Of a DNA stretch of 64,000 nucleotides, positions 1,146 to 6,971 are shown piece after piece. The notes beneath the pieces are model-generated. The model was not told where the DNA came from. It ran no database searches and saw nothing but the letters and a program-made list of their open reading frames with translations. This DNA is from Clostridiaceae bacterium. Its GTDB lineage: Bacteria > Bacillota > Clostridia > Saccharofermentanales > DTU023. Made by a program: the position numbers and the translations under genes. How positions within the stretch are numbered: the stretch's first letter is position 1; each line of letters opens with the position of its first letter. Location: positions 1-64,000 of the forward strand of contig JAAZJH010000072.1 of the NCBI GenBank assembly GCA_012800435.1. Reading direction: 5' to 3'.

Positions 1146-1847
1146 TTATGGCCGCATTAGCCGGATGTCTTCTAAATGTTTCCAATAGGCGCTGACAGCA
1201 AGCTCATAAAAGGGCAATTCAATCGTTTCATCGGGGAATTGCTCGTATAGCCATGTTTTTGCAAATAACGGATTGGAAACAAGAAAAGGTCCCAGTAAAT
1301 AGGTGCCTAGGAAATTATTCCAACAAATACCCTCTTCTTTGGATTGCAGATTAAGACCGAATCCCTTCTCTACTTCGCAAAGGTATGGCAAATCACCCGT
1401 TTTATAAACTTGCGTAAATTGCGCCTTTAGCCCGATGATGTCGAGGTCTCCTCTCTTCCCTATAAAAACGTCACTTAAGCGATCAAGCATCTGCCTGCGC
1501 GCATAAAAAGGAAAGATCCCAAGCGCCTCGATCTTACCGTCATCCGCCTCTATATATTGTCCAAAAATCTCGACGGCATTAGAGATAGCCAGAATCGTCT
1601 GGCCGCCCTCGATTTTATCGCGTATGATGTCTTTTTCCGGCATAAGATCGTCGATGACCTGTTCTTGCATACGTTCTGTCATCGGTCCAATGAACACCAG
1701 GTCGATCACCTCATCAAGAAATCGCGGTCTCTCAATTCGTTTCGTCCGAATGACCTCCGCTTCCGGAAAACTTCTAATCAGGAAATCAATATCCCCCAGC
1801 TCACCAAACAAGCTCGCTATTTCCGGATACAAAAATTCAATCTTCAT
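1146..1847 (-). CDS. GatD-like (lipid II isoglutaminyl synthase glutaminase subunit) protein lacking recognisable catalytic Cys/His
   Basis: Next to MurT; DLVFIG, ALGIFPFYA and LGTYLLGPFL align with GatD; nucleophile region reads TILAISNAVEIFGQYI. Confidence 0.75.
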   Translation of the reverse strand: MKIEFLYPEIASLFGELGDIDFLIRSFPEAEVIRTKRIERPRFLDEVIDLVFIGPMTERMQEQVIDDLMPEKDIIRDKIEGGQTILAISNAVEIFGQYIEADDGKIEALGIFPFYARRQMLDRLSDVFIGKRGDLDIIGLKAQFTQVYKTGDLPYLCEVEKGFGLNLQSKEEGICWNNFLGTYLLGPFLVSNPLFAKTWLYEQFPDETIELPFYELAVSAYWKHLEDIRLMRP

Positions 1848-1852
1848 ACCTT

Positions 1853-3226
1853 CTATTCCTTATCCTGCAGTTGAGCCAGATCCTTACGTATCGCGGACAG
1901 AAGATCACGAACCCAAGGTACATCACTGACATCATGTATGAGGCAAATCAAGTCTGCCTCCTCGTACGCAATGAGACGGGGGATTTCGGCGTACTCACGG
2001 GAAAGAACAATGCGTTCTTCAGGTATATCAGCCATTCTAAGCCGCAGAGCATAATCAAGGTATCTTTCCCCGCAACAAAAAATCTGAAAGAACGAAGGAT
2101 CGTTGAGATATGAATAATCATTGTCATAGAGGTAGGCCATGTTCTCCACAATCTCTTCCTCGGTACCATTGGCCATTACCAGAACTTTACGGCCGGGTTG
2201 TGCTTGCAAATAATCGAAGACACGTGCCGGCGCAACCGGGTTATATCCTTTGCAAAGAACTGAAAGGAAGCGTTTCCCTTGAATGGTCTCTTCATGATAG
2301 CGACTCTTGAGGGGCGGCAATGACCTCGAGTATTCAGCAATCGCACTGAGAGGAATACCGCATTCTGATGCTGTCGCCGCAGCAGAAAGAAGATTATAAA
2401 GATCTGTAACGCCATCCGTCTGTGTTTGAAAGATATTCGTCGTCCCATCTGATGCAAACTCAGCCTGTTTAAGGTCGCGATCAAAGGAGACGACTTCATA
2501 TTTAGTTTCAGGGGTACGATAGCCGCAATGCGTACAATGGTAGCGTCCGATGTGGTTGTAACGAATAAAATCGATCGTCAAATCGAGATGACAAACTGGA
2601 CAGTAAACGAGATCGCTAAAGCGCGGATTCCGTTGTTCTCGTTCTCCTTCTAGCAGCGGAATGCCGTAGTAGACGCGCTCGTTGCTAAGCGTCAGTCTGC
2701 CGGATATAGGATCTTCAGCATTGAGAACTAACTTCGTATTCTGAGGAATGGATCCGTCCAGTATGTCAAAAATGTATTCCGCATGAGCGTTTCGCTGGTA
2801 TGAATCGCGAAAAAGATTGGTCACCAGTAACACATCCGGTTGGATATGCGGGAAGACGCGAATAGCGCTTCGTTCATCAAGCTCCAATACACTGCCTTCA
2901 TGGTGGGATTTACCTCTCCATGTATTGTGCGTTAGGAATGCCGAAGCAAGCCCTTCAATGGTGTTTGAGCCTTCGCGATTATCCATCACGTTCCTGTCTG
3001 CGGATTCAAGAAAAAACCGCAACATGTTACAAACAGACGTTTTTCCGTTTGTACCCGTCACCATGACGATATGATCCGGTTTCTCGACGTGTTTAAGATA
3101 ATTCGAATCAATCCGAAGCGCAATCGCTCCGGGCAGATAACTGCCCGTACGACGTAGAAGACGCATGCCGAAAAGAACGATTTTGCCAATCCAGTGAGCT
3201 ATGTAAAAAGAAAACGGTTTTCTCAT
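1853..3226 (-). CDS. murT: MurT-like Mur ligase domain protein (lipid II isoglutaminyl synthase subunit)
   Basis: MVTGTNGKTSVCNMLR P-loop, CPVC...CTHCG zinc ribbon, DUF1727-like C-terminus, adjacent gatD-like gene. Confidence 0.85.
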   Translation of the reverse strand: MRKPFSFYIAHWIGKIVLFGMRLLRRTGSYLPGAIALRIDSNYLKHVEKPDHIVMVTGTNGKTSVCNMLRFFLESADRNVMDNREGSNTIEGLASAFLTHNTWRGKSHHEGSVLELDERSAIRVFPHIQPDVLLVTNLFRDSYQRNAHAEYIFDILDGSIPQNTKLVLNAEDPISGRLTLSNERVYYGIPLLEGEREQRNPRFSDLVYCPVCHLDLTIDFIRYNHIGRYHCTHCGYRTPETKYEVVSFDRDLKQAEFASDGTTNIFQTQTDGVTDLYNLLSAAATASECGIPLSAIAEYSRSLPPLKSRYHEETIQGKRFLSVLCKGYNPVAPARVFDYLQAQPGRKVLVMANGTEEEIVENMAYLYDNDYSYLNDPSFFQIFCCGERYLDYALRLRMADIPEERIVLSREYAEIPRLIAYEEADLICLIHDVSDVPWVRDLLSAIRKDLAQLQDKE

Positions 3227-5849: not shown

Positions 5850-6971
5850 GTGAGCATACGCGTGCGACGTAACGACTCCTTGACAAGTAGATCCTCTACA
5901 AAGCGATGGCGCCTGATTGTTCTGGTTTTTTTCATTGCGCTGCTTCTTTTTTTTGCGCTCGTCGCGATTTCAAGTCTTAACTTGGCTAATGCCTTGATGA
6001 AAAATGACATCGAACCGATTCCGCCCTATGCGACGAACGCGTTTAAAATGTACGAACCGGTTAGTTTTTTCTCCGGCCCGGAACAGATCACTCTTAACGG
6101 ATGGCTTATCCATGCTGAAAAACCGCTTCGCGGAACGATCATAGTGGCACATCACCAAGGAAGTAATCGACTTCCTCACGGGATGGACACCGCTCGCCTT
6201 TATCAGAAACTCAGTCAGCGCGGCTTTCAGATTATTGCATTTGATTTTCGTCATTCCGGCGAATCATATGGCGACACTTCTACTTTCGGGTACGAAGAAT
6301 CCGAAGATCTCCTCACAGTCATGAGGTGGGCGACAAAGAAGGTAGGTGATTCGCCTCTGATTCTCTACGGTATTGGGAGCGGTACGACAGCGATCATGCG
6401 AGCCCTTTACCAAATGCGCAGACAGATGCTGCCCGGTATCCCCGAGACGCACATTCTTCCAAATGACACCGGTGAAAAAGAAGAAAGCGTCACTTTGTCT
6501 GAAAAGGATCCGTCAAATCAAGAAAACAAAGACGAGGCATCCAAACGCCAACAAGAAGAGATTCGAAAACTCTACGAACGTGTTGGCGGCCTAATTCTAG
6601 ATACACCTGCACGGGGATCAGGTGCATTCATTCGCGCAGACGCTCAGGCGAACATGAATCGCGCGTTTTTCTGGTTACCTTCAACTGTACCATATATCGC
6701 ACGCTTCTCGCTTCGCGCGTATCCTGAAGATGACTTCTACACACTATTAACGATCACTCCATTACCGGTCATGATTGTCTCTCATGATGAAGACAGTCGT
6801 CTTAAATACAGTGAATCACGCGTCATGATCGATGAACGACTGCGTCTTCATCCGGATCGTACACTGTTTTATGAGGCTCCGGGAAAAGGATTTTTAACCG
6901 CCTATCTGCAAAATCCTGCCGCGTATGAAAACGCGCTTTTTAATTATCTTGATCGGTGGTTTCTAAAGTGA
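5850..6971 (+). CDS. Membrane-anchored alpha/beta hydrolase-like protein
   Basis: N-terminal TM; GTIIVAHHQGSNR, IIAFDFRHSGESYG; C-terminal MIVSHDEDSRL. Confidence 0.7.
   Translation: MSIRVRRNDSLTSRSSTKRWRLIVLVFFIALLLFFALVAISSLNLANALMKNDIEPIPPYATNAFKMYEPVSFFSGPEQITLNGWLIHAEKPLRGTIIVAHHQGSNRLPHGMDTARLYQKLSQRGFQIIAFDFRHSGESYGDTSTFGYEESEDLLTVMRWATKKVGDSPLILYGIGSGTTAIMRALYQMRRQMLPGIPETHILPNDTGEKEESVTLSEKDPSNQENKDEASKRQQEEIRKLYERVGGLILDTPARGSGAFIRADAQANMNRAFFWLPSTVPYIARFSLRAYPEDDFYTLLTITPLPVMIVSHDEDSRLKYSESRVMIDERLRLHPDRTLFYEAPGKGFLTAYLQNPAAYENALFNYLDRWFLK

Follow-up and report, generated by a model that had tools for sequence, protein, structure and literature searches.

A MurT/GatD-like gene pair from a Clostridiaceae genome has lost all three residues of the glutaminase catalytic triad and has kept the known residues of a Mur ligase site. 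It was found near the start of a 64,000-nucleotide stretch of contig JAAZJH010000072.1 (the window, by which we mean the whole stretch of DNA analyzed), and the same losses recur in relatives, such that the finding really concerns an ancient clade and not a single pair. What sequence comparison can establish is the loss of the triad, the intact predicted ligase residues, their clade-wide conservation, an altered MurE, and several gene linkages. On this basis we conclude that the pair has given up glutamine as its donor; the reaction itself is inferred and no biochemistry is available. The likeliest role, to which we assign a probability of roughly 0.45, is to join a different amine (plausibly a diamino acid) to the α-carboxyl of D-Glu.

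Identity of the gene pair

The two genes are encoded on the minus strand with a spacing of 5 bp, and their coordinates and frames were checked:

1146 to 1847, minus strand: gatD-like gene for a glutaminase-dead GatD pseudoenzyme subunit, 233 aa; PF07685 at 30.4 bits, best PDB matches to GatD
1853 to 3226, minus strand: murT-like gene for a Mur ligase with the MurT zinc ribbon and C-terminal domain, 457 aa; PF08353 at 58 bits, and PF08245

All matches of the GatD to PDB sequences in a phmmer search were GatD proteins (S. aureus, 6e-15; S. pneumoniae, 7e-14; S. pyogenes, 5e-13), and the top matches of the MurT were MurT proteins (S. aureus, 3e-47). AlphaFold2 models built from family alignments had pLDDT values of 94.9 for GatD and 90.1 for MurT. 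In Foldseek searches the GatD model was closest to the solved GatD structures 5n9m and 6gs2 (TM 0.85, with other amidotransferases at about 0.6 or less), which indicates a GatD fold and rules out a misread frame, and the best matches of the MurT model were solved MurT structures. The MurT has the Mur ligase middle domain, the Cys4 zinc ribbon, and the MurT_C domain, while the GatD has the class I GATase fold and a gene adjoining murT. The pair is thus MurT/GatD by fold and origin. It should not carry the name isoglutaminyl synthase, since it fails the defining catalytic test (below) and scores far under the NCBIfam equivalog cut-offs (61.7 versus 400 bits for GatD and 171.8 versus 800 bits for MurT).

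A canonical gatD/murT elsewhere in the genome would have refuted the preliminary description of this pair. That candidate was rejected: the whole genome contains one MurT_C and one GATase_3 match above the cut-off, and no second pair. As the genome is 89% complete, a missed second copy is not formally excluded.

Loss of the glutaminase triad

Alignment with the S. aureus, S. pneumoniae, and S. pyogenes pairs confirmed the replacements that had been read from the sequence alone, namely, Cys to Ser and His to Leu in GatD and Asp to Asn in MurT. The window pair therefore fails the triad criterion (Cys and His in GatD, Asp in MurT) at all three positions:

1581 to 1583, minus strand: codon of GatD Ser89, at the site of the S. 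aureus nucleophile Cys94
1293 to 1295, minus strand: codon of GatD Leu185, at the site of the catalytic His189
2141 to 2143, minus strand: codon of MurT Asn362, at the site of the triad Asp349, where D349N inactivates the enzyme (PMC6113224)

The oxyanion glycines of S. aureus GatD, G60 and G61, are P55 and M56 in the window GatD, and G95, which follows the nucleophile, is N90. In S. aureus, C94S, C94G, and MurT D349N each abolish glutamine-dependent amidation (PMC3266927, PMC6113224), and glutaminase activity is absent from the GatD mutants C94A and H189A (PMC5871853). Replacing the MurT Asp with Ala in S. pneumoniae reduces activity without abolishing it (PMC6085368), so the argument is carried by the Cys and His losses. 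These precedents lend good support to the earlier proposal that glutamine use has been lost. The proposal would have been contradicted by a triad located elsewhere, but relocation within GatD was rejected because no conserved Cys or His column exists in 64 GatDs of the clade described below, where Cys reaches at most 22% and His 23% at any position.

A clade of triad-less pairs

The search drew on 59 relatives, 399 genomes of the phylum, 292 genomes of the class, a named genome scan, and about 120 regions, and yielded 191 complete Bacillota pairs, including the window pair and two reference pairs. Cys, His, and Asp are all present in 117 of these. Another 64, the window pair among them, form a clade in which no pair keeps the triad or even Cys and His together (0/64 in each case) and to which none of the 117 complete pairs belongs. 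The former Cys is mostly Gly in clade GatDs, in motifs such as TGNALEIFGQYI. Support for the clade is 0.998 in a combined MurT and GatD tree (FastTree, 655 columns). The same split appears in the GatD-only tree (0.82) and, with one extra member, L203, in the MurT-only tree (0.93). Between 6 and 9 canonical/noncanonical changes are needed on the trees, and 200 shuffles of the labels never gave fewer than 49. The survey of relatives that the preliminary description had called for thus found the substitutions well beyond a single pair, and their recurrence throughout the clade excludes a one-off oddity or a sequencing error.

The clade spans 18 genome-index families together with metagenome-assembled genomes (MAGs) named Lachnospiraceae, Oscillospiraceae, Tissierellia, and rumen Clostridiales, and it includes Coprococcus catus, a cultured organism. 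Judging by record titles and isolate names, gut, rumen, or digester samples are the source of many members. Across the sampled genomes, the triad-less pair mostly replaces the canonical MurT rather than being added to it. We found no published description of a dead GatD family or of such a clade in the open-access papers searched, subscription papers being excluded. A link to the Negativicutes with their cadaverine-containing wall was considered for family f36, which holds the only clade member found outside the class; it was rejected, since f36 lacks LpxC and so is not a lipopolysaccharide diderm.

Residues kept, lost, and gained

Residues are given in S. aureus numbering unless stated otherwise. 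MurT has kept GTNGKT, N81, N86, E109/D111/E112, N131, R139, N164, D167, the four zinc-binding Cys, N267, R298, K315, N316, and D355. It meets the criteria for a Mur-type carboxylate-amine ligase (P-loop Lys, Mg-binding acidic residues, and acceptor Asn), and about 97% of the clade retains the acceptor-carboxylate Asn (N86) and the DE pair that binds Mg. Lost from MurT are Q136 (now Ser), D138, E142, D346-G347, and the N341-D342 motif. The loop with Q136, D138, and E142 lies at the GatD interface and is the proposed ammonia channel (PMC6085368).

GatD has kept R128, G190, and N196 and has lost G60, G61, G95, and E147-N148-H149. Its gains, in window numbering, are E58 (98% of sub-clade C), N90, I99, Q143, F144 (98%), T35, and P41. 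Two codons stand out:

1479 to 1481, minus strand: GatD Arg123, equivalent to S. aureus Arg128, kept in 98% of sub-clade C
2783 to 2785, minus strand: MurT His148, gained, in an RNAH motif at the position of S. aureus Glu142 in the loop facing GatD; present in 84% of the 64 pairs

Arg128 is the residue that captures glutamine in S. aureus GatD (PMC5871853), which makes its retention notable. A loop His is present in all Mur ligases and absent from canonical MurT (PMC6085368). The clade His also falls within this loop, though about six positions later, so that its equivalence to the Mur ligase His is only a suggestion. Between the window and a relative with 86% identity, dN/dS was 0.057 for gatD and 0.053 for murT, with dS near saturation. 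Values this low indicate that both genes, the dead gatD included, are under strong purifying constraint.

Co-occurrence with an altered MurE

MurE adds residue 3 of the stem peptide, and a DNPR motif marks the enzymes that add mDAP, with motif and amino acid preference only loosely coupled (PMC3829189). The MurE of the window's genome (contig C55, L300:3949-5568, plus strand) has the unusual residue-3 motif DCPY instead. A non-DNPR MurE was found in 29 of 43 clade genomes versus 2 of 23 canonical genomes (Fisher P = 5e-6), or in 12 of 18 clade families versus 2 of 20 canonical families (Fisher P = 5e-4). The canonical genomes were chosen for spread over families and are not a random draw. Among the clade genomes, 23 have solely a non-DNPR MurE, 6 (Coprococcus catus included) have a DNPR enzyme plus a second, non-DNPR one, and 14 have DNPR only. 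DNPR MurE occurs in 22 of the canonical genomes of the class, and the two non-DNPR enzymes are one sole and one extra copy. Besides DCPY, the clade motifs include DNSR, GHNR, QDPR, EDPR, EDPG, and EDPS. In Coprococcus catus, the second MurE is of the EDPG type and is followed by a three-gene amino-acid-type ABC transporter (L351:3140-7292, plus strand).

Linkage to ectB and ATP-grasp genes

The diaminobutyrate aminotransferase gene ectB was found in 7 of 47 clade genomes versus 0 of 26 others (P = 0.046), with all calls above the curated cut-off except that in G732. Wall ligase genes or associated ATP-grasp genes adjoin five of the seven copies. In L037, L039, and L051, which represent one lineage, ectB directly follows the dead GatD of the pair; it directly follows an EDPG MurE in G687 and an EDPS MurE in G672. 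In G732 it adjoins a MurT relative without a P-loop (E = 1e-43), and in G269 it precedes an ATPgrasp_ST gene whose product is 31 to 41% identical to those adjoining dead pairs at four loci (and also at L050):

L036:6721-7737, plus strand: ATPgrasp_ST beside dead MurT/GatD
L048:6737-7732, plus strand: ATPgrasp_ST beside dead MurT/GatD
L241:9485-10507, minus strand: ATPgrasp_ST beside dead MurT/GatD
L248:9442-10461, minus strand: ATPgrasp_ST beside dead MurT/GatD

The function of these neighbors is unknown; they are possibly a further wall ligase. The linkages point to diaminobutyrate as the donor in some lineages. The sole MurE found in the L037 genome has DNPR (L332), so position 3 is an unlikely place for diaminobutyrate made beside this MurT-GatD, and the D-Glu carboxyl would be a natural destination for it. 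ectB is absent from the window's own genome and from 40 of the 47 clade genomes overall, and the donor in the window organism is therefore unknown. The majority of dead pairs form simple operons of two genes amid housekeeping genes, for which reason a general neighborhood signal was rejected. Polyamine genes (for carboxynorspermidine synthase and decarboxylase), which occur beside the pair in one or two genera (L008, L010, and L233), were likewise discarded as general evidence.

Proposed reaction and alternatives

Our preferred explanation is that the pair consists of a MurT-type ATP-dependent ligase and a GatD partner incapable of glutamine hydrolysis. MurT would most likely activate the D-Glu α-carboxyl of a wall precursor as an acyl phosphate, an intermediate that has reportedly been postulated in both S. 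aureus and S. pneumoniae. The nucleophile would be not glutamine-derived ammonia but another amine, most plausibly an amino acid or a diamino acid (2,4-diaminobutyrate in some relatives). MurT may require the dead GatD in order to be stable and to close, which would account for the retention of GatD, and the rebuilt GatD pocket (Arg123, Glu58, Asn90, Gln143, and Phe144) perhaps binds donor or acceptor. That D-Glu is still the acceptor and an amino acid the donor are both inferences, and no reaction has been shown. Counting against this explanation are the clade genomes with only a DNPR MurE (14/43), the lack of ectB in most genomes, and the solitary operons of most pairs. The attachment of amino acids to the D-Glu α-carboxyl is itself known chemistry (PMC11555704).

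In a more specific form, which we offer tentatively and with the odds against it, the clade would be an unidentified ligase that attaches a bridge amino acid to the D-Glu α-carboxyl in a group-B-like wall, in many gut and rumen Clostridia whose mDAP-adding MurE has been changed or supplemented. In some lineages the bridge residue would be a diamino acid, for example, 2,4-diaminobutyrate, and the glutaminase would have become a dead partner when the donor changed.

The main rival, somewhat less likely in our view but with real support, is that lipid II is still amidated to D-isoglutamine by the pair, which would draw NH3 directly from an ammonia-rich cytoplasm, with GatD a mere required scaffold. 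S. aureus GatD C94G retains NH3-dependent amidation at pH 8.5 and GatD is still required (PMC3266927). The gut, rumen, or digester origin of many clade members is also consistent with free ammonia, as are about ten scattered lineages outside the clade that lack Cys or His and mostly keep the MurT Asp, a pattern expected if glutaminase loss is repeatedly tolerated. Yet this rival leaves unexplained the gained residues (the MurT loop His and GatD E58, N90, Q143, and F144), the retained Arg123, the replaced channel-loop residues, and the co-occurrence with altered MurE and ectB. The new conserved residues, the retained Arg, and the MurE change fit an amino acid or diamine donor better. Of the three outcomes first envisaged (free ammonia, another ligation, or a structural role), the choice has been narrowed without being settled: another ligation is favored over plain ammonia by the MurE co-occurrence and the ectB and ATP-grasp linkages.

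We regard as improbable that the same chemistry serves an acceptor other than the D-Glu α-carboxyl, such as another wall polymer or stem residue. The S. aureus MurT DNADD motif, proposed to recognize residue 3 (PMC6113224), is lost in the clade, and ATPgrasp_ST, whose Pfam name denotes an association with sugar transfer, is a neighbor in five loci; but the acceptor Asn and the DE pair are almost invariant, and the pair mostly stands in for canonical MurT. A noncatalytic regulator or structural complex seems very improbable. The P-loop-less MurT relative beside ectB in G732 indicates that catalytic loss can occur in the family, but the MurT residues known to act on ATP and Mg are conserved throughout the 64 pairs, and a purely structural MurT is unlikely given that the whole predicted ligase site is kept. 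Ordinary glutamine-dependent amidation, with catalytic residues from another protein or a relocated triad, is scarcely credible, having no support beyond the 89% completeness of the genome and facing the absence of both a conserved Cys/His column in clade GatDs and a second GatD above the cut-off.

Comparison with known systems

The clade resembles the MurT/GatD lipid II isoglutaminyl synthase of S. aureus, S. pneumoniae, and M. tuberculosis in its two-gene operon, folds, zinc ribbon, ATP, Mg, and acceptor residues, GatD Arg128, and the GP and NP motifs after the former His. It differs in that the triad, the oxyanion glycines, Q136/D138/E142, and MurT D346-G347 are replaced and new residues are fixed. 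With MurC to MurF it shares the P-loop, the acceptor Asn, ATP-dependent carboxylate-amine ligation, and a His in the active-site loop, as found in all Mur ligases (PMC6085368), but unlike them it has its His displaced, lacks the N-terminal UDP-binding domain, and keeps a GatD partner. The MurT-like proteins of pseudomurein archaea, which occur without GatD (PMC11915815), are likewise MurT relatives apparently independent of a glutaminase, whereas the dead clade keeps a folded GatD.

If our preferred explanation is true, the clade would carry out the same chemistry on the same carboxyl as the loading of D-Glu in group B peptidoglycan, with Gly in Micrococcus, and in the cadaverine wall of Selenomonas and Veillonella. 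To our knowledge no gene has been assigned to the enzymes that load this carboxyl with amino acids or diamines, and none was found in the open-access literature searched. Neither S. aureus nor S. pneumoniae can dispense with the amidation of D-Glu by MurT/GatD, a drug target, and homology annotation would tend to give the clade the same enzyme name despite the missing glutamine step. Ligation of another amine would imply an undescribed stem peptide in a large share of gut and rumen Clostridia and, were an amino acid attached, a new way to build part of the bacterial wall. It would bear on NOD1/NOD2 sensing, on β-lactam and lysozyme behavior, and on which enzymes load the D-Glu α-carboxyl.

Other arrangements in the family

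Partial triad losses are scattered among 10 pairs outside the clade (L070, L072, L125, L136, L142, L147, L186, L203, L205, and L206), for example, Cys to Gly with His and Asp kept. In the window's family, MurT and GatD are fused in one frame of at least 737 aa with canonical Cys, His, and Asp at L368 (G019) and L370 (G025). Genus g2 of the same family has MurT without an adjoining GatD (L032, L033, and L222; genomes G026, G030, G033, and G036); four of these genomes have no GATase_3 protein above the cut-off, although PF07685 can miss divergent GatDs. In G014 and G020, a GatD with the canonical Cys motif is located elsewhere. The gatD genes of L048 and L050, from two related MAGs, are split by a frameshift near the same codon (about 6300 to 6370), for which a pseudogene, an assembly error, and a programmed frameshift are all possible. 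G017 carries a tandem of two gatD-murT pairs with the gene order reversed, and after them genes for carboxynorspermidine synthase and decarboxylase (L233:5293-11641, plus strand). G732 has two divergent dead pairs back to back (L045) and, immediately upstream of ectB, a third MurT relative that lacks both the P-loop and the C-terminal domain (L367:2812-3801, minus strand).
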